Source: Tetradesmus obliquus
Lineage: Eukaryota; Chlorophyta; Chlorophyceae; Sphaeropleales; Scenedesmaceae
Reading direction: 5' to 3'
NCBI GenBank assembly: GCA_030272155.1
Contig: CP126202.1
Location: 2,108,001-2,172,000 of the forward strand
DNA: 64,000 nucleotides
Position 1 is the stretch's first letter, and the number at the start of each line of letters is the position of its first letter. Positions 3,817-47,765 of this stretch are shown one piece after another. The notes under the pieces are model-generated. The model was not told the DNA's origin. It searched no databases and was given only the letters and a program-made list of their open reading frames with translations. A program made the position numbers and the translations under genes.

Positions 3817-5299
3817 ATGGGTCAACGGCGCAAACACATGCTGCAGACTGCCATCACCCAAGATGTGCAGCCACCAGCAGACAACCAGCAAATAGTGCGA
3901 GCTCTGGGCACCAGGGGAGGCAACATAGTAGAGGTAAGAAGCAACACTTCAAGACGCAACTTTTGGCGTGGCAGTTGAGCTACAGACATCACCAGCAGCA
4001 CCGAATGTGGCAGTCGCAGCAGTAGCACTGTTGGCAGCAGCAACAGCAGCAGCAGCAGCAGCAGCAGCAAACTTGCATGCATCTGCTCTAGCTGCAACCC
4101 ATTTGCTCGCTGTATCTCCGGCCGAGTATTCCACTTGCGCCACACAGCTGTGCGTGATGCCAGCCAAGTTCATCTGCAATCCAAACTCCACACAAGTTCG
4201 AAAAATGCATCCTGTGTCACTGCAGGTGGAGTATCCCAATGGCACAACCACCCTCTGCATGATGCCAGCCAAGTTCAACCGCAAGCTGTGGGTGCGCAAT
4301 TTCACATTTAACAAACACGCATCGTGTGCTCCTGCGACCACTGCATTTACAGGTGGAGTACCCAAATGGCACCACCACCCTCTGCATGATGCCAGCCAAG
4401 TTCAACCGCAAGCTGTGGGTGCGCCGCGGCGGCTTTGTTATTATTGAACCAAGCCCAGAGGCTGAGCAGGACGCGGGCAGCCGAGTCACTGGCACCATTG
4501 CCACAGTGCTGTACGAGGAGCATGTGAAGCAGCTGAAGAAAATGCCTGGGGTCTGGTGAGTAACACCAACGTTGTTGGTTTTACAAGTTCTTCAGGAATT
4601 GAATGGTTGAGGTCTAAGGTGTAGGGCGGCGGCTTCCGCATCATAGAGCCAGACCAGAGGCTGAACAAGATGCGGGCAGCAGAGTCACTGGCACCATTGT
4701 TACGGTGCTGTACGAGGTGCATGTCAAGCAGCTGAAGAAGATGCCAGGAGTGTGGTGAGTAACACCAAGGTTGTTGCCTTTACAGGATCTGCAGGGTTTG
4801 AGAATATCGTTTGAGGTGTTCAGGTGTAGGGCGGCGGCTTTCTGATCATAGAAGCAAGCCCAGAAGCTGAGCAGGACGCTGGCAGCAGAGTTACTGGCAC
4901 CATTGCTGCTGTGTTGTTTGAGGAGCATGTGAAGCAGCTGAAGAAGATGCCAGGAGTGTGGTGAGTAACACCAAGGTTGTTGCATTTACAGGATCTGCAG
5001 GGTTTGAGGTGTTCAGGTGTAGGGCGGCGGCTTTCTGATCATAGAGGCAAGCCCAGAAGCTGAGCAGGACGCTGGCAGCAGAGTTACTGGCACCATTGCT
5101 GCTGTGTTGTTTGAGGAGCATGTGAAGCAGCTGAAGAAGATGCCAGGCGTCTGATGAGCATCAGCGCTCGCAGAGGCTTGTTGCTAGCTGTTGCTGCGTT
5201 GAAGTGCCGTTGATGCTGGTGCAATTGCTGACAATCTGTGTCTGCCTGCTGCTTGCATCTGCTGTATTCACAGGCCTGAGGAGTTCACAGCAGCAGCAG

Positions 5300-5346
<47 letters not shown>

Positions 5347-5736
5347 TCTGGCGGCTCTGACCTGCCGCCCTCAGGCTCAAAAAGCGGATCAGAAGCAGAA
5401 GCAGATGATGCAGATGATGATGGCATACAACCTAGCATACAACCCAGCAGCAGCGCAGCAGCAGCAGGCGAGCCGCGGCACAGCAGCAGCAGCAGAGCAG
5501 CAGCAGCAGGGCAGCGGTCAGGCAGCAGTATAGCAGCTGGTGCAGGACCTAATAGTGCAGCAGCAGCAGCAGCAACAGCAGCAGCGGGTGTTGCGGGAGT
5601 GCAGTTAGAAGATCAAGCAGAAGAGAGTGAGAGTGAGAGTGATGATGGGCTGCCTCCGCTGCAGCAGATACACAACAGGCGCGTGGTGCATTATGCAGCT
5701 GACTCAGAAGACAGCAGCGACGAGGACACAGAGTAG
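3817..5736 (+). CDS. EIF1AD: eIF1A-domain protein, EIF1AD type (S1-like OB fold)
   Basis: The product is 260 aa from three exons: 3817-3933, 4353-4555 and 5274-5736 (phases 0 and 2, 261 codons with stop). Residues 1-39 contain the basic MGQRRKH start and DNQQIVRALGTRGGNIVE. Residues 40-106 give VEYPNGTTTLCMMPAKFNRK, LWVRRGGFVIIEP and EEHVKQLKKMPGVW, matching the eIF1A-type OB fold of EIF1AD (probable RNA binding, nuclear). The C-terminal half is low-complexity Ala/Ser with acidic patches and ends in IHNRRVVHYAADSEDSSDED, echoing the NRRQY plus acidic tail of animal EIF1AD. The intron before exon 2 contains two damaged copies of the start of exon 2. The intron after it contains three damaged copies of its end. 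Reading these copies breaks the frame, so correct splicing must use the last acceptor and the first donor. Confidence 0.85.
4121..4298 (+). repeat. Two upstream echoes of EIF1AD exon 2, 5' edge
   Basis: Positions 4121-4197 hold a diverged copy encoding EYSTCATQLCVMPAKF. Positions 4226-4298 hold a near-identical copy, VEYPNGTTTLCMMPAKFNRK LWVR, preceded by a usable TGCAG acceptor. After about 25 codons both leave homology where exon 2 continues RGGFVIIEP. The intact exon follows at 4353. Confidence 0.85.
4625..5153 (+). repeat. Three downstream echoes of EIF1AD exon 2, 3' edge
   Basis: Copies at about 4625-4754, 4831-4960 and 5023-5153 repeat the second half of exon 2 (GGFLIIEASPEAEQDAG ... 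KQLKKMPGVW). The first is frameshifted. The first two keep a GTGAGT donor. The third has lost it (CTGATGAGC). Each is preceded by GTGTAGGGCGGCGG, so each unit includes some intron. The last two are nearly identical, which implies recent duplication or conversion. Confidence 0.87.
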
Positions 5737-5794: not shown

Positions 5795-5798
5795 CACC

Positions 5799-5858: not shown

Positions 5859-6023
5859 CTTGTGACACGTGACCTGGCCCCTCATCGCGCATCAGAAGCA
5901 GAAGTAGCAGACGATGACAGCCGGAGACAGCGCTGCAGCAGATCAACAAATGGCGCGGGGTACACTATCATAGTGCATCACGCAGCTGACTCAGAAGACA
6001 GCAGCGACGAGGAGACAGACTGA
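5795..6023 (+). pseudogene. Degraded second copy of EIF1AD last exon
   Basis: After the EIF1AD stop a CAG run encoding poly-Ala is followed by a diverged copy of the exon 3 tail. It ends HHAADSEDSSDEETD and a stop, against HYAADSEDSSDEDTE in the real exon. It has no upstream exon and probably lies in the 3' UTR or just beyond. Confidence 0.75.
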
Positions 6024-7099: not shown

Positions 7100-7823
7100 C
7101 CCAGTCAGTTATCAGCTGTCTGCTGTCTCCTTGCTGTCACCAGGCAGCATGGTCTCCAGCCGCGCCGCGGGCGGCAGCGCCAGCTCAATGCGGATGTTGC
7201 GGCTGGACTGCTGCTGCTGCTGCTGCTGCATTCAAGCGTCCGCTGAACCATTATCCTCACTGGGCAGCATTGTTGCCAGGCGCTGCTCATCTGGCAGTGA
7301 CAGCTCACTGCTGCTGGCTGCGTCGGCAGCACTGCTGCTGCTGCTGCTGCTGCTGCCTGGGCCCCCAGTTGCGTATCAACTGTCCGCCGCACTCTTGTTG
7401 TTACTAGGCAGCATGCTTTGCAGCCGCTGCTCATCTGGTAGTGTCAGCTTGCTGCGGCTGGGCCAATGCTGCTGCTGCTGCTGCTGCTGCTTTCAAGCGT
7501 CCGCTGAACCTTTACTGTCACTAGGCAGCATGCTTTGCAGCCGCTGCTCATCCGGCAGTGCCAGCTCGCGCCTGCTGGACTACTGCTGCTGCTGCTGCTT
7601 TCAAGCGTCCGCTGAACCTTTACTGTCACTAGGCAGCATGCTTTGCAGCCGCTGCTCATCCGGCAGTGCCAGCTCGCGCCTGCTGGACTACTGCTGCTGC
7701 TGCTTGTCTCAAGCGTCCGCTGAACCCTTGCTGTCACTAGGCAGCATGCTTTGCAGCCGCTGCTCGTCGGGCAGTGCCAGCTCGCGCCTGCTGGACTACT
7801 GCTGCTGCTGCTGCTTATCCCAA
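7100..7823 (-). repeat. Tandem echoes of the uS10m last-exon tail
   Basis: On the minus strand at least six units of about 80-130 bp repeat the end of the last uS10m exon, reading LALPDEQRLQSMLPSDSKGS ADA then TGA. They are separated by CAG runs, at about 7716-7790, 7601-7690, 7497-7580, 7386-7460, 7231-7310 and 7118-7180. Divergence rises with distance from the gene. They lie beyond the real stop codon, so they are presumably 3' UTR or flank. The long plus-strand frame here (Leu/Cys/Ser runs) is a shadow of the CTG repeats. Confidence 0.85.
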
Positions 7824-8657
7824 TCAAGCATCCGCTGAACCTTTACTGTCAGCAGGCACCATGCTTTGCAGCCGCTGCTCATCTGGCAGCGCCAGCTCGC
7901 GCCTGCTGGCTGCGTCAGCAGCTGCATGCCACTGCTGCAGCAGCAGCAGCAGCAGCGCGTGGTTGGCCTGTCCCAACTGCTGGTAGGCTGCTAGGCCTGC
8001 TGCTGCTTGTGAGGAGGCCACCTCAGCCTGGCGCACCTGTTCAGACAGCAGCAAAGGTTGCGGCAAAAAAAGGAGTAAGAGAGGTGCCTGCAGGTGGAAG
8101 ATACAATATGCGTGTCTGGGGCGTGTCCCCTCAGCCGCACAAGCCTCATGGCAGCAGCATAGGTGACAGTTAGTTAAGCTGGCGGCAAAAACTGCAGCGC
8201 GTGGTAAGCTGCCAGGCCTGCTGCTGCTTGTGAGGAGGCCACCTGGCGCACCTGTCGAAAGTAGATGTAAGGTACAGCAGGCAGCATGCACCACAGCAGA
8301 CAGCAAGTGTGAGCAGAGTGCTCGGGACACACGACACATGCATGTGCATTCCACAGCCTGCCAGGCTTGACGGCAGCAGCATGAGAAAGCTTACAGATAT
8401 ACACTATACGCTACTGGTGTCGATTCCAACAAGCGTCTAGCGCTTTGCTGCATACCTTGCCGTATTTGAGCATGGCATGCATCTATTGTTCAGACTGAAA
8501 CAACCTATGTGTGTTGCACTGCGACTAGGCCACATTAACGCCTCACTCACCTTGCCGTATTTGAGCATGGCATGCATCCACTCCGCTGCAGGCAGCTGCT
8601 GCTGGCCAGGCTGGTAGAAGGCCATCAGGTAGGGGAACAGCTTGTGCCTGCAGCAGC

Positions 8658-8705
<48 letters not shown>

Positions 8706-8854
8706 TGTGGGTGACACTCTTGTGTATACATCAGGTCAACACGATGAAGGTCACCATGCCGAGCGAGGATGCTGTGAGCAGCCCGCCTGCAAGCGATTAT
8801 GTTGAGAATGAAGCAACAACTTCCATCTGCCGCTCCAACCACAAGTCAACAGAA

Positions 8855-8893
<39 letters not shown>

Positions 8894-10807
8894 ACCTGTC
8901 CAGCACATCCAGCTTCATCTGCAGCATCGCCTTGTCAATGGCAGCAGCAAGCGCCAGCTGCTGCTGCTGCTGCCCATCCCCACTGCCATCCTCCGCTGCT
9001 GCTGCTGCTGCATCAGCTGCTGCAACCATGTTACTGACTTGCAGCTGCTGAGCCACTGCATCTGCCAGCTGCCGCCCCGGCATCTCAGCAGCAGCAGCAG
9101 CAGCCTGCGGCAGCGCCGACAGCGCCCCGCCAGCTGCAGCAGCGGCTGCTGCTGCTGCCTGCCTGCCGTCAGCAGTCTCTTGCCAGCGCCCGTAGTTTTG
9201 CACCCCTGACAGCTTCAGCCGCTGCTGCAGCAGCTGCTGGTGCATTGACTGCCGCAACCCCTGCAGCGACTGCTGCAGCGCTGCATAGCTGCTGCTGTCT
9301 GCCTCCTGCTGCTGCTGCTGCTGCTGGGGGTCTGCCGGCGCTGCCGCTCCAAAGAGGTGTGCGAAGCGCTGTTTGTGGGAAGCCAGCAGTGGGGTGTCTG
9401 CTGCTGCCTGCTGTGCTGCTGTGGTGGGCAGCAGGTGGCTGCTGCTTGTCACTTTGACCAGCAGCTCCACACCGATGAACTTGTAGAGCTTGAGGGAGTC
9501 CAGGAACCATGCAAGCTCTGCAAGCAAAGACAGCAGAACAAATGTTACTTTGACCAGCAGCTCCACTCCGATGAACTTGTACAGTTTCAGGGAGTCCAGA
9601 AACCATGCCAGCTCTGCGTATACACGCGCGGCGAACAGTTGGCCATCTATCAGCAGCTGCTGTAACTGATAATACACTATCGCTGCACTAACACCAGCAC
9701 CAGCAGCAGTAGCAGCAGCTGCAGCAGCAGCACTCACCTGATGCGTTGTTAGTGGCGTAGGTGATGACGCGCGTCTGCGTGATGCGCGCAAACTGCTCCC
9801 GGCTGGTCTTGTGTACATGGGGCCCCCGGATGACAGTCCAGTGCTTGCGCTTGGTGGGCACTGCTGCATCGCCAATGGGCATAGCCTGTATGCCGTGGTG
9901 CAACAAGAACGACAGCAGAGTGCAGCATAGTTTTCAAGAACGAGTGTTCAGGTGATCAGCGTGCGGGTGTGCCTGGTGGGCACTGCTGCGTCACTAATGG
10001 GCATTGCCTGCAGAGCGAGAGGGCAGCATAGTACTTGTGGTGGGGTGTGCAGCATAAAGCAGCAAGTTGAGAGGAGCCATGATGGGCCTGATGCATGTAG
10101 GTGTTTATTTGAAGCGCCGGATGATATGCAGGCAGTGAACAATGCAGAACGGGGGTGCAAGGCAGAGAGGAGTGCCCTTTTGGTTGCCGCAGGGAAAAAA
10201 CAGAGTTGGATGCTATAGCAGGCGCTGGTCCTGACCAACTGCTTGCTGCAAAGCAGAATCCATAGATGTTCGTGCCACAGGGGTGACAAGTCAGCCTGGT
10301 AGCAGCATTGCTGCTGCTGCTGCTGCTGCCGCCGCTGCCAGCCCATGGCCCACAAAGCACAGCAGCTCTCACCAGCTTAACGTAAGGCACTCCTGTGTCT
10401 CCCTTCTTCCATCCTGGTGGCAGCACCTCGCTGCTTTTGGGAGCAAAGTGCACAAGCAGCAGGTCCCGGATCACTGTGCTGGCTAGCTTCAGGAACTTGA
10501 GATCGTGCGCTTTGACTGTTACTTTGACAGCGTAACGACTAGCAGGAGGCAGCGAACGCTGCGGGCTCCAGCTGAGCTCCTGCGGCCGGCCTGCTGCTGC
10601 TCGTCTGTACTGCTGCGATGCGTCTGCCTGATCATCTGCGCCCGCATCGCTACTAGTTGATTGAACAACGGATGCTGCTTGGTACAGTCGATGCTGCGCG
10701 CCTGCTGCTGCGGGTAGCAGCTGCTGCAGTGCCAGGCACGCACTGGCCTGCTGCTGCTGTTGGCTGAGCAGGGCGAGTCTCGCTATCCGTACTAGACTCA
10801 TTCTCAC
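7824..10807 (-). CDS. MRPS10: Mitochondrial small ribosomal subunit protein uS10 with long C-terminal extension
   Basis: The model is five exons: 10373-10807, 9738-9885, 8896-9517, 8551-8647 and 7824-8036. They total 505 codons with stop and all phases agree. Residues 1-50 (MRMSLVRIARLALLSQQQQQ) look like an Arg-rich mitochondrial presequence. The uS10 fold follows: YAVKVTVKAHDLKFLKLAST (exon 1), PTKRKHWTVIRGPHVHKTSR then EQF (exon 2, the signature segment) and ELAWFLDSLKLYKFIGVELL (start of exon 3). uS10 sits in the head of the small subunit. About 300 residues follow that ordinary uS10 lacks: a Gln/Ala-rich helical stretch, then FPYLMAFYQPGQQQLPAAEW in exon 4 and a helical last exon (VRQAEVASSQAAAGLAAY). 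I do not recognise this extension. It could belong to a second gene if an exon boundary is wrong, but the continuous phase argues for fusion. Echo copies flank exons 2-5. Confidence 0.8.
8193..8251 (-). repeat. Upstream echo of uS10m exon 5, 5' edge
   Basis: On the minus strand, an acceptor (TTTCGACAG) is followed by GTGCGCCAGGTGGCCTCCTC and the sequence for SSQAAAGLAAY. This copies the start of exon 5 at 8036 with a small deletion. It leaves homology after about 19 codons. Confidence 0.8.
8456..8482 (-). repeat. Downstream echo of uS10m exon 4, 3' edge
   Basis: A 27-bp exact copy of the end of exon 4 (coding MHAMLKYGK) is followed by GTATGC, a possible 5' splice site. The intact exon ends at 8551 with GTGAGT. 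Confidence 0.8.
9547..9613 (-). repeat. In-frame upstream echo of uS10m exon 3, 5' edge
   Basis: On the minus strand an acceptor (TATACGCAG) leads into a copy encoding ELAWFLDSLKLYKFIGVELL VKV. Then come GTAACA and, about 30 nt later, TTGCAG and the intact exon 3 at 9517. The offset between copies is 96 bp, a multiple of three, and no stop intervenes. Inclusion of the echo would give an in-frame tandem duplication of this helix, unlike most other echoes. Confidence 0.82.
9956..10011 (-). repeat. Upstream echo of uS10m exon 2, 5' edge
   Basis: CTCTGCAG is followed by a copy of the exon 2 start coding AMPISDAAVPTR (intact exon: AMPIGDAAVPTK). Homology stops after about 15 codons. Confidence 0.8.
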
Positions 10808-11787: not shown

Positions 11788-12190
11788 CTACCGCACATCA
11801 ATGCGCGTCGACCCCAGCTGCTGCTTCCCTTTTGAATACTCAATCATGCCGAAGTAACGCTGTGGTGGCACACCAGTAAACCGCAGACCGCTGAAACTCA
11901 GCTGTACATCCAAAACTTGACCCGCACGCACCGGTGTGCGACCAAACGGCTGTACATCCATTAACACGGGGTTTGCTGTCCCCTGTCTGGGCTGCTGCTG
12001 CAGCATAGCAACACCGGCAGCAATTGATGTGTCACTGCTGCTGCCTGGCGCGTCACTGGAATCAGCGGCGTCACCAGGCAAATCGCTGCTGCTGGCGGCC
12101 GCAGGGGAAGTGTCACTTGGGATGACACTACTGGTGTGCTCGCTGCCGCCCATACCTTCTGGAACTGATGGCAGGTCTAGTGCAGACACA

Positions 12191-12223
<33 letters not shown>

Positions 12224-13546
12224 CTGAGCATCCACACGTACACAAAGTAGCTGACCCGGCGAGGTGCCTTGTCATATCCGCCAAGCACCCTGACAGTGTA
12301 TCTCCCGGGATCTGGAGATCTCACCCAGATCTGCTCATCTGCAGCACCGGGAGTCCAGCTGCTGCCCACGATCTGCAAACCTTGGGACAGCCTCAGATCT
12401 AGATCACAGCACGAGGCCGGCTGCAGATCTCCTGCAAACATCGAGATCCGCAGATAGGATGTGCCAGCTGGTACTGTGATGTTATGCGGGTAGCCGTCTC
12501 TGTTAGATGACATCATAGATCCCCGCAAGATTGTGGGCGCCGCAAGTCCGAGGTTCCGTATGTCCAAAGTTCCGCGCCAGCCAGGCGTGATCTGGTAGCT
12601 GAAAGCCGTTGAATCTTTGGACGGCTTGACTTGCGGCGGCGCCTCAAACTGTGAGGCTTTGGCGGCGATGGGGATGCGGGTCATTGTGTCTTGATCCGAC
12701 TGCAGCATAGCAGCAGCAAACACCCAGCCGCCGCCAAGCGCTGCATCCATGATTCGAACAGCGATCTGGATCTCCTGACTGGCCCCAGGCGCGAGGGTGA
12801 AGGACCTTGGTGTTATGGAGTCCACGCGCAATGGCCCGGATGCACCGCCTGGCTGCTGCACAGCACTGAAAGTTGCCGTGGTGTTTAGCACGCTTGTGAC
12901 GCGGCGGGTGACGATCTTTGTTGATCCAGCAACAATAGATGGTAGCGAGATAGATGGCAGGTTCAGCTCTGCAGGCGATGTGCAAGCGGGATCAGCAGTA
13001 CCTTCTGCTGCTGCTGCTGCTGCTGCTGCACAGCTGTTGCAAACTTCTTTGATGCTTGCTGGCAGGTCCACATTTGCGGGCTTTGCTGCTGCGCAGGCAA
13101 ACTTTGCCCAGTCGCTGAACCCTGAGTCGAAGATGAGGCCGGGGTTTAGCATCTTCTCAGGGTTCACGTGCCCGGCGCCAAAAGCAAATGGATTCTTGCC
13201 GATTTGTTGGCTGGTGTTGCCAGTGCGTGTGAACCTGTAGGCTGTAGTCATCATTGCTGCGAGGTGAAGAAAGTAGACACAAGCGGTAGCAACGCAGGCA
13301 GAATGTCAGTGATTATTGCGGGAGCAGCTGTGCCATGCAGCGGGTGTTGGATGCATATGCATGCACTGCAGCTGGGCTGACATCTTTTAGTTGCATGGGG
13401 GTGTTGACAACGCACATGACATTCAACTGGATGCATGCTTGCCACAGATACAGCGGCAGGGCTGCAATTTTTTGCCGGAGCACATTCTGCCTGTAGCCAT
13501 GCATGCTGGCACCAGCTATAAGCTTGCTACATATGCCGCTGGGGGT

Positions 13547-13585
<39 letters not shown>

Positions 13586-16096
13586 GCAGCAGGCCTGTTG
13601 CTGCTCACCTGACTTGATGGCCATGGGTGACCAGTCGGGGTGGGCCTGCCGCAGCAACGCTGCCAGTCCAGCAACGTGAGGCGAGCTGTAAAGGCAATAC
13701 AACATGATGCACAGCAAACAGCCTTAAGTGAGATTTGATTGATCACAACTGATTGATGAAGTTTGAGATGAAACTGGCCGACAGCCCAGCAATGTGAGGC
13801 GAGCTGCACGTGCAGTACAACATGATGCACAGGGGCAATCATCCAGCTTTCACAGTGTGAACGTTCCCAGCATGTTGCAACACACACAGTGCTGGTATGA
13901 GCCAGTCCAGCAATGTGTGGCGAGTTGCATGCACAGAAAAACATGATGCACAGTGGCAACTGTCAGCTTTCACAGTATGAACTCTCCCAGCATGTTCAAA
14001 ACACACAGTGCTGATATGAGCCAGTCCAGCATTGTGTGCAGGCAGCACAGCACAATGCAAAGCAACCAGTCTTGATTGAGATGTATATCTAAAACCATGA
14101 ACGCGTTCAAGACAGCTATGCAGATGCTGTGCATAGTTCACGCACCGGCTGCTGATTGAGTTGAGGGGCTATCAATAGCACTGTCTTTCGCTGCTGGCTG
14201 CTTGTCAGGTGCTGCTGCTGCTGCCGCTGCTGTTCAGCGAAACTAATGTAAAGCTACGCAGCTGCAGCAACAGCTGGCTCACCTCATCGAAGTTCCTGGC
14301 GGCATATGAAAGAGGCAGTGCATTGATGAAGCAGGCAACGACAGCAGCAGCCAGGGCAGGCAGGGCAGGCAGCAGACCCACGCGTCAGCAGCAGGGCCTA
14401 GCAAGCAAGCAGGGTCCATGCATCAGAAAGGGAGTTGCAATGATCAGCAGCAAAGCACTAACGGCAAGCGCACCCCGCCGCGTTGCAACCTGCATGCATG
14501 ACTGCAGCTACCGTCTTGGAACCAGCCACTGTGGCGCACACTTTTTGTTTGGTATGTGAGAAGCATTGAACACAACCGCCAAACGAAATCTGACTGACAC
14601 CAGTGACGCATAGCCCAAACTCATTCGCAACGCACCTGAAAACAACGCAAAGGCGTTGCCTGCCGCATCTTGGATGCTGGCCTTGTCCTCCGGCGAGGCA
14701 GCCGCCGCAATGTCCACCCCAGGCGCATAAATATCTGGCTTCAGCGCAGCCCCCCCCCCCCCCCCCCCCAGTGCAGCTACTGACTTGAGACCAGCCACGT
14801 GCAGTCGACAGCCCTCCACACAACTGAAACAAGGCACTTACAGACAAGTATTCACAGTCCTGAACCCTGAAAAGCTCACCTGAAAGCAGCGCAAAGGCGT
14901 TGCCCTCCGCATCCCGGATGCCGGCCTTGTCCTCGGGAGAAGCAGCCGCCGCAATATCCACCCCAGGCGCAGAAAGATCCGGCTTCACCACAGCCCCCCC
15001 AGTCGACGGCTCAGGGCCTCGGGAAGAAAATGCAGACACCACTGGCGCCGTTGCATTCAAATCAATCACAATGGGCAGGAATGCAGCTGTAGCAGCAGAC
15101 CCGGCTGCGGAGATGAAGCTGCGCACTTGGTCCCGCAGTGCGGCGAGCAGGTGGACCGTTGGAACTGCGTAGCGTTGTGCATTGGCCCAGTCTGCATCGC
15201 TAGGGGTGTTGAGCAGCAGCACTCCGATGCCGCCTGCTTCCTTTACTGCTGCTGCTTTGTCGGCACGTGCATTGCCGCCGCGGTCACATGCCTGCGGGAG
15301 CAAGGGGAGCAGAGACAGGGTTGAGAAACTGATCAGGTGAGGGAGGTTTACAGGCAGGGGATGAGGGAGACACGAAGCGCACTCACACAGCACACTGTGA
15401 TTGGCAAATGGCCCTCCATGACGCAGTACAGCATCTGTGTGTGTGATACAACACTCCCGCAGCACCATCATGCACTTGCCCTCCTTCTACATGTGTGCAC
15501 GTGATTGAAAACACGGCACATTAGTGCTCTGGACACTTTGGGGATACACACCGCTACAAAGAACCCCGCTAAAAACAAAACATCCTTGCAGCATCACGGA
15601 GCACTCACCACAACTTTGCCGCGCACTTTTGCAGCATCCAGCGTCCCTGAATAGCACTGCTGCGCCCTCGCCATATTCGCCTGCGCCTTAGCTCCCTGCT
15701 GCGCCAGAATAACAGGCGAAGCCTCCAAACCCTGCATGTAAAACCCTGATCCCACAAGCGTCAGGGTTTTGGCTGTCGCTGAACCGCCGCCGCCCAAAAC
15801 CACGGTTGCCCTGTATGCCCTGTTGTGGTTGCTGGCAGCAACTGTTGTTATCCAAGGTGCTGCATTTTGAACGGATTCCTCTTTGGGTCCATCATTGCCT
15901 GCTGATGCTGCCACAAACACACCGGCACGGGCCACTTGAAGCAGCGCAGTTGCCAGCAGGTCCGGAAACTCATACGTGTCACTTCCAAGTGACATGTTAA
16001 CAACATCAACGCCGTCGGCCACTGCCTTGTCGAGTGCAGCGATGATGTCTGCTTGCGGGCACGAGCCCCCTTCCAAACCCCAGCAGACCTGCAGCA

Positions 16097-16129
<33 letters not shown>

Positions 16130-19100: not shown

Positions 19101-19165
19101 AGGAGCAGAAGCAGCAGAAGCCAAGCTGCCCGTACATGCAGCCTCGCTTGCTGCTGCTGTGCCAT
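11788..19165 (-). CDS. Secreted subtilisin-like serine protease (S8 subtilase with I9 propeptide, PA and Fn3-like regions)
   Basis: Nine exons: 18451-19165, 17635-17785, 17089-17181, 16504-16621, 15609-16088, 14880-15291, 14283-14295, 13609-13685 and 11788-13256. They close to 1176 codons with stop. Residues 1-31 form a signal peptide ([20 protein letters not shown]). An I9 propeptide follows (FTTAGFAVADTLTEQQLAAL ... LTTPEFLGL). Catalytic residues are Asp237 (GIIDTG), His325 (RDIASHGTHTAST), oxyanion Asn424 (SAGNDG) and Ser659 (GTSMSSPHVAG). AAYKVCW and GKVVACDRGG, with a PA-like insert before SAFSSRGPEP, place it with plant/algal subtilases. After the catalytic domain an Fn3-like region (about 760-860) and a beta-rich, Ser-rich tail follow. 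It is likely secreted or periplasmic. Ser659 is carried by a 13-nt microexon. Exons 2, 3, 4, 6 and 8 have damaged edge copies in adjoining introns. The copia element begins about 630 bp upstream of the ATG. Confidence 0.88.
13783..14045 (-). repeat. Three upstream echoes of subtilase exon 8, 5' edge
   Basis: Minus-strand copies of CTCGCCTCACGTTGCTGGAC (coding SPHVAGL) occur near 13786-13803, 13909-13925 and 14024-14040, about 118 bp apart. The intact exon starts at 13685. The nearest copy keeps a CAG acceptor. The others have lost it (CAA, or a small insertion). Confidence 0.8.
14283..14295 (-). other. 13-nt microexon encoding the subtilase GTSM active-site motif
   Basis: GAACTTCGATGAG on the minus strand is flanked by CGCCAG and GTGAGC. 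Exon 6 ends TCA-G and exon 8 begins C-TCG-CCT-CAC. Inserting these 13 nt restores both phases and gives S-G-T-S-M-S-S-P-H-V-A-G, the catalytic Ser motif. No other sequence between exons 6 and 8 supplies it. Confidence 0.85.
14636..14770 (-). repeat. Downstream echo of subtilase exon 6, 3' edge, behind a G20 run
   Basis: This copy encodes LKPDIYAPGVDIAAAASPED ... NAFALFSG, against LSAPGVDIAAAASPED ... NAFALLSG in the intact exon. It ends in TTTTCAG then GTGCGT, so it keeps the same phase and a possible donor. It starts in a run of 20 G (20 C on the plus strand, 14750-14769). With a suitable acceptor it could act as an alternative exon. Confidence 0.82.
16304..16352 (-). repeat. Downstream echo of subtilase exon 4, 3' edge
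   Basis: This copies the end of exon 4 (GGIISSMAPRARIAAYK) with donor GTAGGC. The intact exon ends at 16504. Confidence 0.82.
16925..16962 (-). repeat. Downstream echo of subtilase exon 3, 3' edge
   Basis: This copies the exon 3 end (VKALYPEEMESCR) followed by GTGAAA. The intact exon 3 ends at 17089 with GTGAAC. Confidence 0.8.
17374..17558. repeat. Two abutting palindromic (foldback) elements in subtilase intron 2
   Basis: The first has perfect 21-bp arms at 17374-17394 and 17458-17478 (TGCATGCCGCTGCCACTACA plus G, and its complement) around a TATATATGC-repeat loop. The second has 30-bp arms at 17476-17505 and 17529-17558, starting GCATGTTGAGTGCGTATATT, around an AT loop. The arms meet at a shared GCA. 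No coding capacity and no obvious target duplication are seen. They could be foldback or MITE-like insertions, or cruciform-prone AT repeats. Confidence 0.85.
17856..18302 (-). repeat. Four upstream echoes of subtilase exon 2, 5' edge
   Basis: Units of about 115-150 bp lie at about 18247-18302, 18098-18153, 17982-18033 and 17856-17911. Each has TGCAG or similar followed by GCGTGTGGCCGGAGCACCCC, coding VWPEHPSFSDRQDLS. The intact exon starts at 17785 and continues to FAYTVLGKQQFRGQC. Copies diverge after DLS, and some reach TGA within a few codons. Confidence 0.87.
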
Positions 19166-19792: not shown

Positions 19793-19797
19793 TGCAA

Positions 19798-35429: not shown

Positions 35430-35842
35430 TGACAAAATGTGTTATTACAGCCTGCATACTGCAGCACACAGTTTGCCTCGGCACTCTACAATGCTACTCG
35501 CATATGACAGAGTGCCAAGTGATTACGCTCTGCAAAGAGCCACATACATACTTTAGTATATTATCAGTATCACGTATATTGCTGTGTTGTCAGCAATGGA
35601 GCAGTTCTGACGGAGAACCACCTGTGGTCCTATTCCACAGGCAGCATACTACGCCTGGTCCGTGGTATGATGGACCGACCTCTTTAGTGGGCTTTTGCCC
35701 CTTCGGTTGTGCCTCCTGTCTATTGGTCTTCTAGGCTCCAGCCTATATAAGCAGTGTCACCGGCAGTGAACTGTAACAGAGTATACCGAGCGGCACAAGT
35801 CTTTGGCAGACTTGTCCTACTGACGACGCAGGAATTTTCTCA
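35430..35842 (+). repeat. 3' LTR of the copia element
   Basis: It is the same as the left LTR except for one base, with an intact CTATATAAGC TATA-like box. It is followed by the TGCAA duplication. Confidence 0.93.
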
Positions 35843-39545: not shown

Positions 39546-42248
39546 ATGACGGTCGCTACGCTTGCTTCTAGCGTGGCGCAGACAGTAGGAGGAGCTCCAG
39601 CAGAGGACGCACTCGTGCAAGGCACAGCAGACTGGGACCTGCATCTGCCTGCAACCACAGTGGACTCAAAGGATGCCGACACACCAGACGCATGGGTGCC
39701 ACGTGACCCCAGGATTCAAAGGCAAGGCGCAGCATTGGGGCTTGGTGCTGCTGCTGACATTCCTGCAAGCATGAGGCGGCACTGCCTGTGACTCACCTGC
39801 TGCTTCGGCTGCTGCTGCTGTCATGCTAGCCCAGCATCAGGCTGCAAAGCTTTGACAATGTACTGTGTAAATAATGAACGAGCTTAGGAGGGTGTGCAGC
39901 AGCTTCAGCTGCATGTGCGTGCATGCAGCCAGCACAAACCCTGAGCTCAGGCTGCTCAGCAGGCGGATGTGCCTCCCCCTAAATGCCTAAGGCAGGTGCA
40001 GCACCATCTGCCCGACACCACAGCTACCTGCGGCAGCTCCCATGAGCCATGATGTGTTCAGCTCCAAAGGCTGTTTGCTGCTTACACACTCAATCCATGT
40101 GATTTGTGCATGCAGCTGTACTCACCAGCCTGTCATTACATCCCTCCTGCAGGCTGACTGGGCGCCACCCCCACAACTGCAAGCCCCCCATGAAAGTGCT
40201 GATGGCAAGTGGCTTCATCACCCCTCCAGTCAACACAACGCTAAACCCCCTGGTTTTTCCCCATGCTGCTGCATCTACAGGCTCACTGGGCGCCACCCGC
40301 TTAACTGCGAGCCTCCAATGGACGTGCTCATGGCAAGCGGCTTCATCACGCTGCTTGAGCAAACTTAGATCAAACTTTGACCCGGCTTCCATGCCTTTTC
40401 TGCAGGCTCACTGGGCGCCACCCCCTCAACTGCGAGCCCCCAATGGATGTGCTCATGGCTTCTGGCTTCATCACCCCTCCAGCCATCCACTACGTGCGCA
40501 ACCACGGCGCTGTGCCCAAGCTGTCCTGGAGCAGCCACAAGATTACACTCAACGGCCTGGTGGAGAAAGAGCTGAGCATCAGCATGGACGAGCTGGTGGC
40601 GATGCCAAGCGTCACAATCCCAGTGACGCTGGTGTGCGCAGGTGGGCATGAATGCATAGATTCTGGCTTGAACCCAATTTGGAAGCAGTAAAGTTGTCCG
40701 TGTGGCTGAATAGTTTGATCTGCCTGTGCCCAAGCTGTCCTGGGCCAGCCACAAAATAGCGCTCAACAGCATGGTGGAGAGGGAGCTGACTGGACGAGCT
40801 GGTGGCGATGCCTTCAGTCACAATCCCTGTGACGCTGGTGTGTGCAGGTGGGCATGAATGCTTGTCAATGTGTAGATTCTAGTTTGGAGCCAAATTGTTG
40901 GCAGCACTGCAGTTGTCCGTGTGGCTCAATAGTTTGTTTCGCCTGTGCCCAAGCTGTCTTGAGCCATCCACAAGATAACACTCAATGGCCTGGCAGAGAA
41001 AGAGCTGAGCCGCTGATGATCAGCATGGATGAGCTGGTGGCGATGCAAGAAGCGTCACAATCCCCGTGACGCTGGTGTGCGCAGGTGCGTGCATTCTGAA
41101 TGAATGTAGAGGGCGCATTGGTGCCAGGTAGCCTGTCCTGCAAACCTCGACAAGAGCTGCTGCAACCGCTGCTGCGGCAGACAGCCGGGGGAAGCAGGCG
41201 AACGTGCCCAACAAGGGCTTTGGCACACCTGTGCTGCAATCTGTCCTGCAAACTCTCACAATCCCTGCTGCTGCTGCAGGCAACCGCCGCAAGGAGGAGA
41301 ACATGCTGAAGAAGAGCATCGGCTTCAACTGGGGGCCCTGCGCAGTGTCCACCAGCCACTGGACCGGCGTGCGCCTGGGCGACCTGCTGCGTGCTGCTGG
41401 CGTGAAGCAGGGAGGCGCGTATGTCAGCTTCAGGGGGCCCACTGGCGAGCTGCCCAAGGGCGATGACGGCAGCTACGGTGAGCTACAGCGCAGTGCTATG
41501 GTTGTGGTGTTCTATGATGTTATGCGTGCTGCTGGTGTGAAGGAGGGTGGCAGCTATGTGAGCTTCAGGGGGCCTACAGGGTAGCTGCCCAAGGGAGATG
41601 ATGGCAGCTACGGTGAGCCTTCCTCTGCTGTCGTTGCGCAGTATTGCTTTCTTTGCAAACGACGTGCTAACGCTGCAAGCGACCTGCTGATGGCTTATAG
41701 GCAGAACAGGCGCTGGCTCACACCCGACCACGGCTTCCCAATTCTTGACCTTATGTTCCTGCATGTTACTGCTGCTGCCTCTGCCTTGTTTCACACCCTG
41801 TCCTGCAGGCACCTCGCTGGCAATGCACTATGCGCTGGATGACGCAAATGACGTGCTGATCGCTTACAAGCAGAACGGGCGCTGGCTCACACCAGACCAC
41901 GGCTTCACAATGCTCGACCCTATCGTTGCCTGCCTGCTGCTGCTACTCATGCTGCTGTGTCTGCTGCTCTCCTTTTGTTCCTGCAGGCACCTCGCTGGCG
42001 ATGCACTACGCGCTGGATGACGCAAACGACGTGCTGATCGCCTACAAGCAGAACGGGCGCTGGCTCACCCCAGATCACGGCTTCCCGGTGCGCATGATCA
42101 TCCCGGGCTTCATCGGCGGCCGCATGGTCAAGTGGCTGGCGGAAATAACAGTTACGGCGGCCGAGAGTGACAACTTCTACCACTTCCACGACAACAGGGT
42201 GATGCCGCCGCACGTGGATGAGGAGCTGGCGAAGAAGGAGGGTGAGTG

Positions 42249-42302
<54 letters not shown>

Positions 42303-43462
42303 CATGCAGATCGCTGTAGACCTTGTGTTGATGATAGTCTGGCTGGGACTCACCACGTGTGACACTTGATATGCAAGGAGCTGTGCATGGCACTACTTTG
42401 CTACTGCTGCTACTGCTGCTGCTGCCTTTTCTATGGTGTTATGTGGCCTTGCAGCATTGTCGCACATCGACTGCAATGTGACTATTCTTGCCCCAACTGA
42501 GAATGATGCCTGCTGCTGCTGTTGCTGCTGCTGCCACTCCTCGCTCAAATCAGGCTGGTGGTTCAAGCCGGACTTCATCATCAACGAGCTCAACATCAAC
42601 AGCGCCGTCAGCAGGCCCTGGCACGACGAGGTGCTGCCGCTGGGCACAAATGTGACCTACCCCATGAGCGGCTACGCATACACAGGTGGGTGGGGTGATA
42701 CTGTCCTCAATATGTCACTCAGCAGCAGCAGCAGAAGCAGCAGCAGCAACAGCAGCAGCAGCAGTAGCAGCAGGCTCTTGCACACTGAGGTGCTGCCGCT
42801 GGGCAGTGGTGTAACCTAGACATGAGCACTTGCGCATGCACAGGTGCGTGGCTGAGGGTACAACTAGCAACAAACACAATCATCACTGGTCTGCTGCTCT
42901 TGATCTCACAGCTGCTGCTGCTGCTGCTGCTCCTGCTGCTGCTCCGCAGGTGGCGGCCGCAAGATCATCCGCGTGGAGGTGTCCCTGGACGGAGGCAAGC
43001 TGTGGCGGCAGGCGGAGATCACCCGCTTTGAGCAGCCCAACCCTGCGGGGAAGCTGTGGTGCTGGATCTTCTGGCACTTTGAGGTGCGTATAGGGCCTAC
43101 TATAGTTTAAACCTGGCTTGTTTGGGCTCGCAACCAAGGCTAGTAAGGATCCGTCCTGGGGGGAAGCTGTGGTGCTGGATCTTCTGGCGCTTCGAGGTGC
43201 GCGCAGCTGCTGCTGCTGCTGCTGCTTCTGCTGCAGTGTGCGGATTGAGGTGATAATTGATTGTGGCTTAATTTGAGCATGCAGCATGATGAATGTACGA
43301 GGTTAATTGGGACATGCAACGATATCTCTGCTTGTGGTTTGCTGCTGCTTCTGCTGCTGCTGTCGACCGCAGGTGCAAACGGTGGAGTTTGCGCGTTCAG
43401 CGGAAGTGCTGGTGCGAGCGTCAAACAGCAGCATGAACAACTGCCAATTACACTGACGTACA

Positions 43463-43497
<35 letters not shown>

Positions 43498-43596
43498 CAA
43501 CCGCATGTGCAAACGGTGGAGTTTGCGCGTTCAGCGGAAGTGCTGGTGCGAGCGTCGGACAGCAGCATGAACAACTGCCAATTACACTGACGTACA

Positions 43597-43627
<31 letters not shown>

Positions 43628-45745
43628 TCGACCGCAGGTGCAGACGGTGGAGTTTGCGCGTGCAGCGGAAGTGCTGGTGCGAGCGTCGGACAGCAGCATG
43701 AACAACTGCCAAGTACACTGACATGTGTATGCTGCTACTGCTGCTGCTGCTGCTGCTGCTGCCCGCAGGTGCAAACAGTGGAGTTTGCGCGTGCGGCAGA
43801 GGTGCTGGTGCGCGCGTGGGACAGCAGCATGAACACGCAGCCGGCGCACATCACGTGGAACCTGATGGGCATGATGAACAACTGCCACTTCAGAATCCTG
43901 GTGCACAAGCACGTGGACGACCAGGTGGGCTGCACTCGGTGGTTTCCCACTTTGTTTGTGCTGAAGCCTATTCGGTGGCTGTTTTGACCGAGGTTTCGTG
44001 TTTTTGATGAGGCGGTGGTGATGAATTTGCTGCCTGCAGCGCAACATGGGGCTGCGCTTGCAGCAGCCCTCACCAATGCAGACAGGGGCCACTGATCCAC
44101 AGGGCGGATCACCAATGCATGTGGTTTTTGTGCAGGGCAACATAGAGCTGCGCTCCTAGCGCCACTGGGGTAAGATCTGACACTGAATTCACCTGATCTT
44201 ACCTGCTGTCCTTCTCTCCACATCCATTGTGCAGGGCAACATGGGGCTGCGCTTCCAGCACCCAGCGCCAGTGCAGCTGGGCACCGCTTGACCCTCTCAG
44301 CTGACAATGCTATTGTGCGTGTTTCTGTTCTTTTGCAGGGCAACATGGGGCTGCGCTTCCAGCACCCCGCGCCAGTGCAGCCGGGCGCCCTCGGCACCAT
44401 TGGCTGGCGGGAAGAGGAGAACCTGGCCCGGCAAGGCCTTGAGGCGGCAGCAGCAGCAGCAGCGCCGGCAGCAGCAGTGGCGGCCAAGCCGGCAGCAGCA
44501 GCAGCAGCAGGCGCTGCGGGGATGTTCACTATGGAGGAGGTGGAGCAGCATGCGACAGAGGAGAGCTGCTGGTTTGTGCACGAGGGCAAGGTGAGTCAAG
44601 AGACAGAGGCTGTGAAAGACTATAGCCTGTTAGTACTGGCAGCACGGCTGTGTCGGCTGTTGGCAGTGGATCTGCTGCTTGCCACTGGATTGAGCACAAG
44701 GGCAAGGTGAGTCGAGGGACAGCGGTTTGACAGATTGCTTGTCTGTACAGACGCCGCAGGTCACTGCAAAGTGGCAGCTTTGCTCTATATCTCGTTCATC
44801 CAGCCATAATTTGAACAGGTGTATGACGCCACACCGTTCCTGGAGGAGCACCTTACCTTCGCCAAATCCATCCCAATCAGTGTAGGCATGGATGCAACAT
44901 CACTGATGGTTGGGAGTACATTCTCATGAAATCTTTGTTTTTCGATGTGCTGCCGTCGTAACAGGTGTACGACGCCACGCCCTTCCTGGAGGAGCACCCA
45001 GGCAGCACAGAATCCGTCCTGATCAGCGCAGGCATTGATGCAGCTTCACTCACGTTTGGTGACGTTTGTGTTGTTTTTCAAATGTAACAGGTGTATGACG
45101 CAACACCCTTCCTGGAGGAGCACCCAGGCGGGGCTGAGTCGATCCTAATCAGCGCAGGCATGGATGCAACCGACGAGTTCAACTCCATCCACAGCAGCAA
45201 AGCAAAGGGCATGCTTGCTCAGTACTACATTGGAGAGCTGGTCACAGCAGAGCAGAAGGCAGCAGCAGCAGCAGCGGCGCCGAAGGGCGCTGTGGCAAAC
45301 GGCGTCGTCAGCATCACAGCCAACGGCACTGCAGCGGCAGTGAACGGGGCAGCAGCAGCAGCAGCAAATGGCAGCGGGGAGTTAGTGGCGCTGGATCCGC
45401 GCAAGAAGATTGCATTCAAGCTAGCAGAGAAGATTGAGCTGAGCCACAACGTGCGGCTGTTCCGCTTCGCGCTGCAGAGCCCGGAGCACAAGGTGAGCGG
45501 CGGTGCAGCGCTACTTGCAGCTAGTTTGACTGCACGTTGACTGCTGGTTTGACTTGGACTCGCTGGTTTGACCTGGATCCGCTCCAACCTCCGCGCCCCA
45601 TAACATGCCATAGAGTATATAGCACAGCTCCACAAGCAACGATCCATTATGCAGGCTAACACTTGCTGCTGCTGCTGCTGCCGTGCAGTTTGGCCTGCCT
45701 GTGGGCAAGCACGTGTTCCTGTACGCCAGCGACTGACTGAAACTC

Positions 45746-45790
<45 letters not shown>

Positions 45791-47337
45791 ACTGCAGTTC
45801 GGCCTGCCTGTGGGCAAGCACGTGTTCCTGTACGCCAGCATTGGAGGGGAGACGGTCATGCGTGCGTACACGCCCACCAGCCAGGACAAGGACCTGGGGC
45901 ACTTTGACCTGGTAATCAAGGTCTACAGGTGGGTCAAAGGCGTTACTTTGACCAGCGTGGTTGACCGCAGTTGCATGCACATATCAGTCTGTCTTGGTTG
46001 AACTTCTGCAAGCAAACACCAGCTGCGCCAGCACCAGAGAAGAGCAAGTGTTGCAGTAACAGCCGTGGAATTGCCGAGGCAATCCTCAGCCCAGTGAAAC
46101 TCTGGTCAAAGCTTTTACCATCTCTTCTGCTGCTGTTGCTCCTGCTGTTCAAACTGCTGTCTGCAGGGCCAACGAGCACCCCAAGTTCCCTGAGGGCGGC
46201 AAGATGAGCCAGCACCTGGACAGCCTGGCAGTGGGTGACAGCATTGAGGTGAAGGGGCCAGTGGGGCACTTTGTCTACGAGGGCCGCGGCAAGTTCAGCC
46301 TCAACCGCAAGCCGGGCTTCGCCAAGTGAGTCGAGCTTTTGAGGGTTGGGGGCTTTGAGTATTGCTGTTGGCTGCAGCACAGTGACCTACAGCCTGCAGT
46401 GCGTGCCAAATGCAAGAAGCTTGCTGGTGCTGTGTGTGGCTCCAGTCATCAAAGCAGCTGTGGTTGTGCGCACATATCGTAGCACGTGCTTGGCTACACA
46501 CAAGCACCTCGCGCTCAGGTGACACGTGTGCCATACAACGCCTGACGCAATGCTGAAGCTTCTCGTTCTTGCTGCTGCTGCTGCCGCTGCTGCTGCTGCT
46601 GCTGCTGCTGCTGCAGGAGCATCAGCCTCATTGCTGGCGGCACCGGCATCACTCCCTGCTGGCAGGTCATCCGCACCATCACTGACGACCCGGAGGACAC
46701 CACAGAGGTCAGCTGCATTTTGAATTGTGTTACTTCTGTTATTTATGTTACCATAACGTGGGAGGTGTTTCACTGTGTCATTTGTGTAGCATGCAGGACA
46801 GCGTGTTGATGTGTGGTGGCGTCTGCTGCACTAGCAGCTGCCCGGCTGCTACTGGCCAGTCAAAACTGCCGATCCTGCAGGACCCCTTTTCTGTTCAACT
46901 TCAACAGCAACTCGAACTGACTGACACTCGCAACTGTCTGTTGTCCTGCCTTCTGTCTGCAGGTGCGGCTGCTGCTGGCCAACCAGTGTGAGGACGACAT
47001 TTTGCTGAGGGAGCAGCTGGAGGGGCTGGCAGCAGCACACCCCAACTTCAAGCTCTGGTACACGCTGGACAGGTGAGGCGGGATAAAATTTGGGCCGGAT
47101 ATAATTTGCATGAGTGATTTCGTTGCACAATCTAGCTGCTGACACTCAGTGAGAGATGCGTTGGCATGATTTATCAGGGTCTTGAGCACTTGTGGGTCCC
47201 TGGCAGCCTCAAAGCATCAGCAAACACAAGCATGTGCACATGGTCTTATGGTAGAGACATTGGTGCTTTCCACAGCCGGCAGTACTGTCACGACTTGGTT
47301 ACCTGCTCACACTCACCACCGCTGCTGCTGCTGCTTG

Positions 47338-47370
<33 letters not shown>

Positions 47371-47765
47371 TGCAGGGCCCCTGAGGGCTGGGCCTACAGC
47401 AATGGCTTCATCAACGAGGACATGCTGCGTTGTCAACTTCTAACACACCACTGCTGCTGCTGCTGCTGCTGCTGCAGGGCGCCCGAGGGCTGACCTACAG
47501 CAGCGGCTTCATCGACAAGGACATGCTGCTTCATCATAATCTCACACACCACTGCTGCTGCTGCTGCTGCTGCTGCTGCAGGGCGCCCGAGGGCTGGGCC
47601 TACAGCAGCGGCTTCATCAACGAGGACATGCTGCGGGAGCACCTGCTGCCAGCAGGGCCCGAGGCCATCGTGGCGATGTGTGGCCCCCCACCCATGATCA
47701 AGTTTGCGTGCATCCCTAACCTGGAGAAGCTGGGCTACACGGAGCAGCAGATGATCACCTTCTGA
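39546..47765 (+). CDS. NIT1: Assimilatory nitrate reductase (Moco, cytochrome b5, FAD/NAD(P)H)
   Basis: It reduces nitrate to nitrite in the cytosol with NAD(P)H. The 14 exons are 39546-39721, 40406-40641, 41280-41477, 41987-42241, 42554-42685, 42950-43083, 43769-43924, 44339-44590, 45091-45492, 45798-45928, 46167-46325, 46617-46707, 46963-47072 and 47582-47765. They total 872 codons with stop, the normal length for the family. Moco domain: [20 protein letters not shown] and [14 protein letters not shown], with ligand Cys136. The dimerisation region includes [19 protein letters not shown]. Cytochrome b5 has haem ligands His524 (EEHPGG) and His547 (NSIHSSKA). The reductase has RAYTPTS (669-675), GGTGITP (751-757) and CGPPPMI (844-850). 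Ala-rich hinges flank the b5 domain. Intron 1 appears to be GC-AG (AAAG/GCAAGG). Ten of the 14 exons have damaged edge copies in the neighbouring introns, about 21 in all. Confidence 0.95.
40153..40350 (+). repeat. Two upstream echoes of nitrate reductase exon 2, 5' edge
   Basis: Copies at 40153-40230 and 40281-40350 each follow a good acceptor (CTGCAG, TCTACAG). They encode [20 protein letters not shown] and [20 protein letters not shown], and lose homology after GFIT. The intact exon starts at 40406. Confidence 0.88.
40722..41084 (+). repeat. Two downstream echoes of nitrate reductase exon 2, 3' edge
   Basis: Copies at about 40722-40847 and 40942-41084 repeat the second half of exon 2 (PKLSW ... 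CDAGVCAG region). They have frameshifts and a TGA, and both keep a donor (GTGGGC, GTGCGT). Confidence 0.87.
41525..41612 (+). repeat. Downstream echo of nitrate reductase exon 3, 3' edge
   Basis: It copies [19 protein letters not shown], then an in-frame TAG, then [10 protein letters not shown] with donor GTGAGC. The intact exon ends at 41477. Confidence 0.87.
41650..41909 (+). repeat. Two upstream echoes of nitrate reductase exon 4
   Basis: A decayed copy at about 41650-41740 has lost its start. A near-exact copy at 41809-41909 ([20 protein letters not shown] then [12 protein letters not shown]) follows CCTGCAG. The intact exon begins at 41987. Confidence 0.87.
42785..42841 (+). repeat. Downstream echo of nitrate reductase exon 5, 3' edge
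   Basis: It copies [10 protein letters not shown] followed by an in-frame TAG and the ACACAG/GTGCGT junction. It lies after a CAG-rich stretch. Confidence 0.78.
43152..43195 (+). repeat. Downstream echo of nitrate reductase exon 6, 3' edge
   Basis: It is a 44-bp copy coding [12 protein letters not shown] with donor GTGCGC. The intact exon ends at 43083 with GTGCGT. Confidence 0.82.
43373..43718 (+). repeat. Three upstream echoes of nitrate reductase exon 7, 5' edge
   Basis: Copies start at 43373, 43507 and 43638, about 132 bp apart. Each is preceded by a CTG tract and encodes [25 protein letters not shown], then reaches TGA. The second has lost its acceptor (CGCATG in place of CGCAGG). The intact exon starts at 43769. 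Confidence 0.9.
44040..44285 (+). repeat. Three upstream echoes of nitrate reductase exon 8, 5' edge
   Basis: Copies start at 44040, 44136 and 44235, about 100 bp apart. Each follows a TGCAG-type acceptor and encodes [14 protein letters not shown] or a decayed version. One carries a TAG and another ends at TGA. The intact exon begins at 44339. Confidence 0.88.
44683..44706 (+). repeat. Downstream echo of nitrate reductase exon 8, 3' edge
   Basis: It is a short decayed copy of the WFVHEGK end followed by GTGAGT. The intact exon ends at 44590. Confidence 0.65.
44819..45048 (+). repeat. Two upstream echoes of nitrate reductase exon 9, 5' edge
   Basis: Copies start at 44819 and 44965 after AACAG acceptors and encode [11 protein letters not shown] with partial SILISAGMD. 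Both lack the complete haem-ligand motif HPGG: the first has HLT, the second HPGS. The intact exon starts at 45091. Confidence 0.88.
45689..45738 (+). repeat. Upstream echo of nitrate reductase exon 10, 5' edge
   Basis: CTG tract, TGCAG, then [14 protein letters not shown] followed by D and TGA. The intact exon begins at 45798 after a longer CTG tract. Confidence 0.88.
47376..47530 (+). repeat. Two upstream echoes of nitrate reductase exon 14, 5' edge
   Basis: Units of about 103 bp, each with a CTG tract and CTGCAG, start at 47376 ([18 protein letters not shown]) and 47478 (with an 1-codon loss, [14 protein letters not shown]). The intact exon starts at 47582. Confidence 0.9.

Follow-up and report, generated by a model that had tools for sequence, protein, structure and literature searches.

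In a 64,000-nucleotide stretch of the genome of the green alga Tetradesmus obliquus (C12:2108001-2172000, hereafter the window), four genes carry partial copies of the edges of their own exons in the adjoining introns and 3' flanks. A single assembly was analysed (104.66 Mb in 17 contigs, 56% G+C); for this species a genome of 107.7 Mb with 57% G+C and a mean intron length of 462 bp has been published (PMC5966456). Gene models were reconstructed from splice sites and reading frame, and all four are open, with no stop ahead of their own terminus. The forward strand holds an EIF1AD-like gene of three exons (3817..5736; exons 3817-3933, 4353-4555 and 5274-5736) and a nitrate reductase gene of 14 exons and 871 amino acids (39546..47765), while the reverse strand holds a uS10m-like gene of five exons (7814..10801; exons 10801-10373, 9885-9738, 9517-8896, 8647-8551 and 8036-7814, with the stop in the last) and a subtilase gene of nine exons (11788..19165), including one of 13 nucleotides at 14295-14283. 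Pfam matching, for which parts of the proteins were used, assigned EIF1AD, uS10m and the subtilase to eIF-1a, Ribosomal_S10 and Peptidase_S8/PA, and the reductase protein matches solved structures of nitrate reductases and cytochrome b5 reductases in the PDB.

Copies were sought on the sense strand of each gene, with CAG/CTG tracts masked, using its exons extended by 30 bp of flank as queries. This search found 47 local copies outside exons (EIF1AD 7, reductase 21, uS10m 10, subtilase 9), where an earlier inspection of the letters of the window (the sequence-only reading) had put the number at about 45-50. They derive from 21 of the 31 exons and affect 19 of the 27 introns, with 0 to 6 copies per edge. 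In EIF1AD, the 5' edge of exon 2 is copied at 4110..4179 (72% identical to the exon, AG lost) and 4223..4297 (96%, AG kept), and its 3' edge at 4626..4784 (84%, GT kept), 4831..4990 (86%, GT kept) and 5024..5163 (84%, GT changed to AT); the 3' flank contains a copy of the 3' end of exon 3 (5931..6019, 76%) and a 30-bp scrap of the same exon from the masked search (5887..5916), all on the forward strand.

The reverse-strand copies of uS10m include six of the 3' end of the last exon, at 7119..7186 (74%), 7232..7330 (80%), 7375..7461 (77%), 7493..7578 (93%), 7601..7686 (93%) and 7709..7794 (90%). The others are 5'-edge copies of exon 5 (8202..8255, 87%), exon 3 (9543..9617, 91%) and exon 2 (9968..10010, 86%), and a 3'-edge copy of exon 4 (8454..8483) that is fully identical, at 30/30 (28/28), beside an unrelated flank. 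In the subtilase gene, also on the reverse strand, 5'-edge copies belong to exon 8 (13777..13832, 84%; 13901..13953, 79%, AG lost) and exon 2 (17859..17936, 95%, flank alike; 17983..18035, 92%; 18100..18174, 89%; 18248..18304, 91%), and 3'-edge copies to exon 6 (14633..14756, 87%), exon 4 (16288..16363, 93%) and exon 3 (16906..16963, 88%). At the inner end of the exon 6 copy (14749-14769) stand about 21 consecutive C (G on the gene strand).

The reductase copies, on the forward strand, comprise 5'-edge copies of exon 2 (40136..40240, 82%; 40274..40349, 88%), exon 4 (41801..41913, 92%), exon 7 (43367..43439, 88%; 43501..43573, 89%, AG lost; 43632..43704, 90%), exon 8 (44035..44090, 84%; 44124..44163, 82%; 44227..44285, 93%, flank unrelated), exon 9 (44814..44898, 81%; 44958..45042, 86%), exon 10 (45684..45730, 98%) and exon 14 (47374..47429, 93%; 47476..47529, 93%). 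Copies of 3' edges come from exon 2 (40724..40861, 83%, flank alike; 40943..41087, 85%, flank unrelated), exon 3 (41523..41618, 86%), exon 5 (42768..42851, 78%), exon 6 (43155..43201, 94%, flank unrelated) and exon 8 (44685..44734, 82%), and one copy of the 5' part of exon 4 is without its edge (41659..41739, 79%).

Nine of the 47 copies have no splice junction (eight gene-end copies and the edge-less one). A junction-bearing copy contains 22-132 bp of exon edge and is separated from its exon, when nearest to it, by a spacer of mostly about 45-140 bp (listed range 25-287). The inner end of a copy is sharp and by eye bears no consistent AG or GT, and on that ground complete mini-exons or alternative exons were rejected. 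Copies of one edge mostly end at the same inner point, as in an array.

Placement, orientation and occurrence beyond the window

The sequence-only reading had described a placement rule without exception, by which copies of a 5' edge lie upstream of the intact exon and copies of a 3' edge downstream. In the window the rule holds for 26/26 copies of 5' edges and 20/20 copies of 3' edges (46/47 in all), and the one departure is the 30-bp piece at 5887..5916, an internal scrap derived from the EIF1AD 3'-end copy. When both strands of the four gene regions were searched with masking, 31 direct pairs and 0 inverted ones came out; this count omits self-overlapping palindromes (17374-17558), overlapping alignments within arrays, and matches below 30 bp or 70%. 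The palindromes are AT-rich, lie in subtilase intron 2 and have arms 76-98% identical. When the masking was lifted, additional matches appeared on both sides and both strands, and these we judged to be triplet-repeat or distant low-identity matches.

The four gene regions (21.5 kb) hold 22 duplication families; elsewhere in the window, 17.5 kb of mostly intergenic DNA holds 3 and 15.8 kb of transposon holds 1. A repeat-laden gene at 49655-53790 (4.1 kb), with long open stretches and leucine-rich by eye, has 0 local duplicate pairs, and eight arbitrary 3-kb stretches of the genome, genic or not, gave 8 families in 24 kb with 1 inverted pair. Shuffling the reductase and subtilase genes by 3-mers left 0 pairs. 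Chance or low complexity as the source of the copies was rejected on the masked search, the shuffles and comparison with unrelated loci, and an assembly artefact by the look of the copies, most of which have diverged 4-25% from their exon.

The genome-wide search suggested by the sequence-only reading was run on a sample, whose loci surround exons for kinases, mitochondrial carriers and molybdopterin oxidoreductases. Exon cores were Pfam rows chosen by eye (37/149 kinase, 58/133 carrier, 10/13 oxidoreductase) from best-scoring rather than random matches, and 101/105 were scored, 300 bp being needed on each side, in 55 merged regions of 188,628 bp, with L002 and L005 (the window's own gene) excluded. 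A local copy was present for 27/101 cores, against 1/101 when the same cores were compared with unrelated loci, and the former probably understates the frequency among whole exons, because a Pfam core often ends before the exon edge. The 54 core copies comprise 24 of 5' parts upstream and 27 of 3' parts downstream, all direct (51/54 direct and on the predicted side), one 5' part downstream, one 3' part upstream and one inverted, so that 53/54 are direct. Both off-rule copies sit in locus L067, where one of the cores is probably itself a copy. In locus L032, the live exon edge and three copies follow one another with two kinds of flank in alternation (X, Y, X, Y), as duplication of a block of two units would leave them.

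Wherever a splice junction could be placed, in the window and elsewhere, the copy lies on the predicted side (69/69). Set aside from these were 37 matches short of the edge, of which 6 lie on the predicted side and 31 on the other, the latter being copies of the exon's other edge that were caught by a query spanning a short exon; copy-bearing cores lacking a clear splice site were omitted from the junction counts. Exon-edge copies are a real and genome-wide feature, and a striking one in quantity. The side rule is no separate law, since it follows from the geometry of tandem duplication and the survival of the protein. Duplication of whole exons followed by truncation was rejected, as it predicts 3' parts upstream and 5' parts downstream equally often, a pattern absent from the window and the sampled loci.

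Exon parts and intron flanks of the copies

The splice-site dinucleotide is kept in 60 of the 69 copies, as AG in 31/39 acceptors and as GT or GC in 29/30 donors. Beyond it, each copy was aligned by its exon part only, and the next 70 bp of intron were compared with unrelated introns (about 70 controls, cut at 0.05); 6/72 pairs missing more than 6 edge bases were omitted from the flank profile and from the decay simulation below, and matches on the other side were skipped. By this test the flank is still like the exon's own in 25/66 copies, while in 41/66 (28 acceptors, 13 donors) it is no more like it than unrelated introns are, beside exon parts that are 73-100% identical. With the firm junctions of the window alone, 24/38 flanks are unlike. 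Exon identity and flank similarity are uncorrelated (Spearman 0.10, p 0.41, n=69).

The unlike flanks nonetheless have the composition of splice sites. Among the 13 unlike donors, identity to the exon's own donor is 0.85-0.92 at +1, +2, +3 and +5, 0.46 at +4 against a background of 0.45, and 0.22 from +6 to +15 against 0.26, so that past the junction the profile is that between unrelated real donors. The 28 unlike copy acceptors have a pyrimidine tract with a content of 0.64, compared with 0.69 in real acceptors (n=27) and 0.49 at intronic CAG (n=277). When duplication followed by decay was simulated, the mean number of flanks failing the test was 9.4/66 at 0.1 indels per substitution and 16.9 at 0.25, with a maximum of 21; gap events in the exon parts number 21 per 523 mismatches.

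A mobile element or introner as the source of the spacers was rejected: the two spacers searched in the assembly are single-copy, and spacers hardly ever match between genes. Comparison of 104 spacers and flanks gave 12 cross matches, 10 of them within a gene and 2 weak ones between genes.

Codons were compared between 45 exons and their 96 copies, out of 131 exons examined and with one copy-like core omitted. Mismatch rates at the three codon positions are 0.089, 0.066 and 0.206, and the 498 codons with a single difference comprise 333 synonymous, 158 missense and 7 stop changes, where random change would give 27/70/3%. The ratio of stop to missense changes stands at its neutral value, and for that reason the copies look free of constraint now. 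Differences at four-fold sites are 1.74-fold above the expectation for neutral change in the copy alone (bootstrap 1.21-2.35), whereas at most about 1 would be expected if both lines mutate alike. The neutral mutation yardstick included an intergenic tandem array at 61712-62531 with units of 121-153 bp. CpG or base context was rejected as the source of the third-position excess, the corrected factor being 1.70 and the relative mutability 1.00. Third-position divergence is 0.196 for copies with alike flanks and 0.218 for those with unlike flanks.

Exon part and flank may also differ in history within one array. The copies of EIF1AD exon 2 that begin at 4831 and 5024 are identical at 127/130 exon positions and have unrelated flanks, while those that begin at 4626 and 4831 share 47/48 aligned flank bases and differ at 20/129 exon positions, 13 of them third positions. 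Across all informative triples of sequences, the histories of exon and flank are incongruent in 20/28, two of these individually significant.

Origin of the copies

We consider that exon edges in this alga may be small tandem arrays, born by duplication and recombining inside the exon tract, in which copies that are now silent were once live edges, a reading drawn from the sequence to which we give a probability of roughly 0.5. The unit of such an array would be a splice-site flank with about 20-130 bp of exon edge, and its birth would be a short tandem duplication reaching from the exon interior over the splice junction into the intron. Because only the unit joined to the remainder of the exon yields normal mRNA, the second unit would become intronic, and would always lie upstream if it copies a 5' edge and downstream if it copies a 3' edge. 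Further copies would then be generated within the array, as the mostly common inner breakpoints suggest. Recombination between units, by unequal exchange or short gene conversion, would take place mainly inside the exon tract, since exon tracts remain alike while the short flanks drift; it would maintain the similarity of the tracts and alter the flank and splice site adjoining the intact exon. As such recombination swaps the live flank, silent copies would often bear flanks and exon tracts with a past as live edges. Their splice sites would then be independent of the exon's own yet good, their differences from it largely synonymous, and the stops part of a recent neutral layer. The proposal assigns the copies no role in splicing.

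The steps of this proposal differ in strength. Junction-spanning duplication as the birth step, the geometry put forward by the sequence-only reading, is well supported as far as one genome can show, by direct orientation, the side rule, inner breakpoints mostly common to an array and the 25/66 matching flanks; with 41/66 flanks unlike, it seems insufficient alone. Array growth and exon-tract recombination are inferred steps. Tentatively, they would mean that the live splice site is periodically replaced by that of a neighbouring copy, a turnover by exchange and not by point mutation, in which introns lengthen too.

Several observations weigh against recombination inside the exon tract. Simulated decay at 0.5 indels per substitution gives a mean of 29.8 failures/66 (maximum 36), and doubled divergence at 0.25 indels per substitution gives a mean of 43.3, so that a high indel rate in introns could match plain decay. 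The 28 unlike acceptors are slightly above background, with 0.40 against 0.34 from -6 to -15 and 0.71 at -4 and -5 against 0.51 and 0.43, and the unlike flanks as a set retain slight residual homology (combined p 0.0009). The split into alike and unlike flanks depends on the 0.05 cut with about 70 controls and is weakened by CTG-rich acceptors, and 31/69 copies, at 18 junctions, were placed by hand using a splice-site matrix. AG has been lost in a fifth of the acceptors (8/39). The synonymous share is higher, not lower, in copies with alike flanks (77%) than in those with unlike ones (62%; p 0.008). Just 2/28 triples are individually significant, both from one exon, and 8 are congruent; and pairs of copies with alike flanks have diverged equally in exon (100/947) and flank (65/571), as they would by plain neutral decay.

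Such decay is the core of the explanation that the copies are mutational debris, left by junction-spanning tandem duplications and conspicuous because selection preserves the exon partner. Direct orientation, the side rule, the 25/66 flanks still alike, the loss of AG or GT in 9/69 copies, the near-neutral stop:missense ratio, the equal divergence just described and the presence of local duplications outside genes all fit it. Against it stand the 41/66 unlike flanks adjoining exon parts 73-100% identical, the synonymous excess, and the donors in which the consensus is retained while neighbouring positions are at background, and we regard it as possible but doubtful. The suggestion of the sequence-only reading that the pattern could be purely mutational therefore stands for the duplication part, and the unlike flanks seem to call for recombination within the exon tract in addition. 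If selection instead retained the copies as auxiliary or decoy sites, through which splicing or the retention of introns is adjusted, the AG or GT/GC kept in 60/69 copies and the functional look of donors and pyrimidine tracts would follow; against this, 8/39 acceptors have no AG, stops accrue at the neutral ratio and copy number varies from 0 to 6 per edge in no pattern that we discerned, which leaves a splicing role improbable in our view.

The fading of similarity at the junction in 41/66 copies, beside unrelated but good splice sites, and the fully identical uS10m exon 4 copy with its unrelated flank, might also be read as traces of copying through RNA, in which a partly spliced pre-mRNA is cut precisely at its splice junctions and recopied into the intron, pasting the edge onto a pre-existing splice site. 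Spliced RNA would lack the flanks that in 25/66 copies resemble the exon's own, the inner ends bear no consistent AG or GT, and both searched spacers are single-copy; this route seems to us highly implausible. We give as little credence to exchange between long-diverged haplotypes or hybrid genomes that brought a foreign exon edge next to the resident edge. Such exchange would explain the synonymous bias together with the unlike flanks, and for one Scenedesmus strain a diploid state with separated alleles has been reported as likely (PMC7955037), but deep haplotypes should raise exon and flank divergence jointly, whereas at third positions copies with alike and with unlike flanks have diverged to the same degree (0.196 vs 0.218), and the two spacers have no second copy in the assembly.

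Known systems, intron length and neighbouring features

Gao and Lynch reportedly described in 2009 internal gene duplication, in which segments within genes are tandemly duplicated and splice sites are carried along. The alga differs in that its exon edges are hit repeatedly (21/31 exons in the window) and the copies form arrays within introns already present; intron gain was not observed, and recombination seems to act on exon tracts separately from their flanks. Zhuo et al. are said to have treated, in 2007, human introns arising from tandem arrays, and to judge from the title alone these are likewise tandem arrays around splice sites. In concerted evolution of tandem repeats, exchange keeps tracts alike while sequence outside them drifts; in the alga it would act on half-exon tracts of 20-130 bp and would choose the live splice site.

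Intron gain by tandem genomic duplication of AGGT (PMC3443670), with cases in Drosophila (PMC2891723), is alike in that a local tandem duplication renders one exon copy intronic and leaves the protein unchanged. There, however, a new intron arises inside an exon, whereas in the alga existing introns extend at their ends and inner breakpoints are without consistent AG/GT; in the four genes no AGGT duplication was found to enclose a new intron within an exon, and the copies lie in existing introns or the 3' flank. Internal tandem repeats that reshape human gene structure (PMC2812944) likewise alter exon-intron structure, but are minisatellite expansions according to a section heading of that paper, whereas the unit in the alga is an exon edge with its splice site. 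Introners, as presented in PMC9860276, similarly change many introns across one genome, and are copies of one element, unlike the spacers here, two of which are single-copy and which hardly match between genes. Among the literature searched, at the level of titles and abstract openings, no case of such density is described, and a word search of two reports on related algae gave nothing on introns. The origin is of a described kind, internal gene duplication, while the density, and the way in which exon tract and flank have come apart, appear new within that literature; the density looks unusual as judged in this alga by itself.

Of all intron bases in the four genes (27 introns), copies make up 25%, and copies with their spacers 48%. 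The mean intron length is 447 bp, and falls to about 234 bp once copies and spacers are removed; the published mean is 462 bp for T. obliquus, and those of four other green algae are 230-302 bp (PMC5966456). The drop is close to this published gap, as arithmetic on four genes only, and makes the copies a concrete candidate cause of intron growth. If the rate among sampled exons holds, the genome offers many natural tests of how the spliceosome chooses among similar exon edges, and if the proposed swapping of flanks is true, splice sites can turn over via recombination. Gene predictors and splice callers applied to such genomes will face exon-like decoys in introns.

Some smaller features of the genes and of the window may be added. 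The 13-nucleotide subtilase exon (14283-14295, reverse strand) encodes part of a GTSM stretch, which we take to be the active-site motif. Nitrate reductase intron 1 apparently opens with GC (39722-39727, AAAG/GCAAGG), as a GC-AG intron, and in introns of the same gene (e.g. 43340-43835, 45747-45795, 46570-46614 and 47321-47635) sense-strand (CTG)n often abuts, by eye, the CAG of the 3' splice site, as if serving as its pyrimidine tract. Near-identical direct repeats at about 19790-20220 and 35430-35840 bracket, also by eye, a 15-kb stretch with a long polyprotein-like frame and resemble the long terminal repeats of a young, presumably copia-like insertion.

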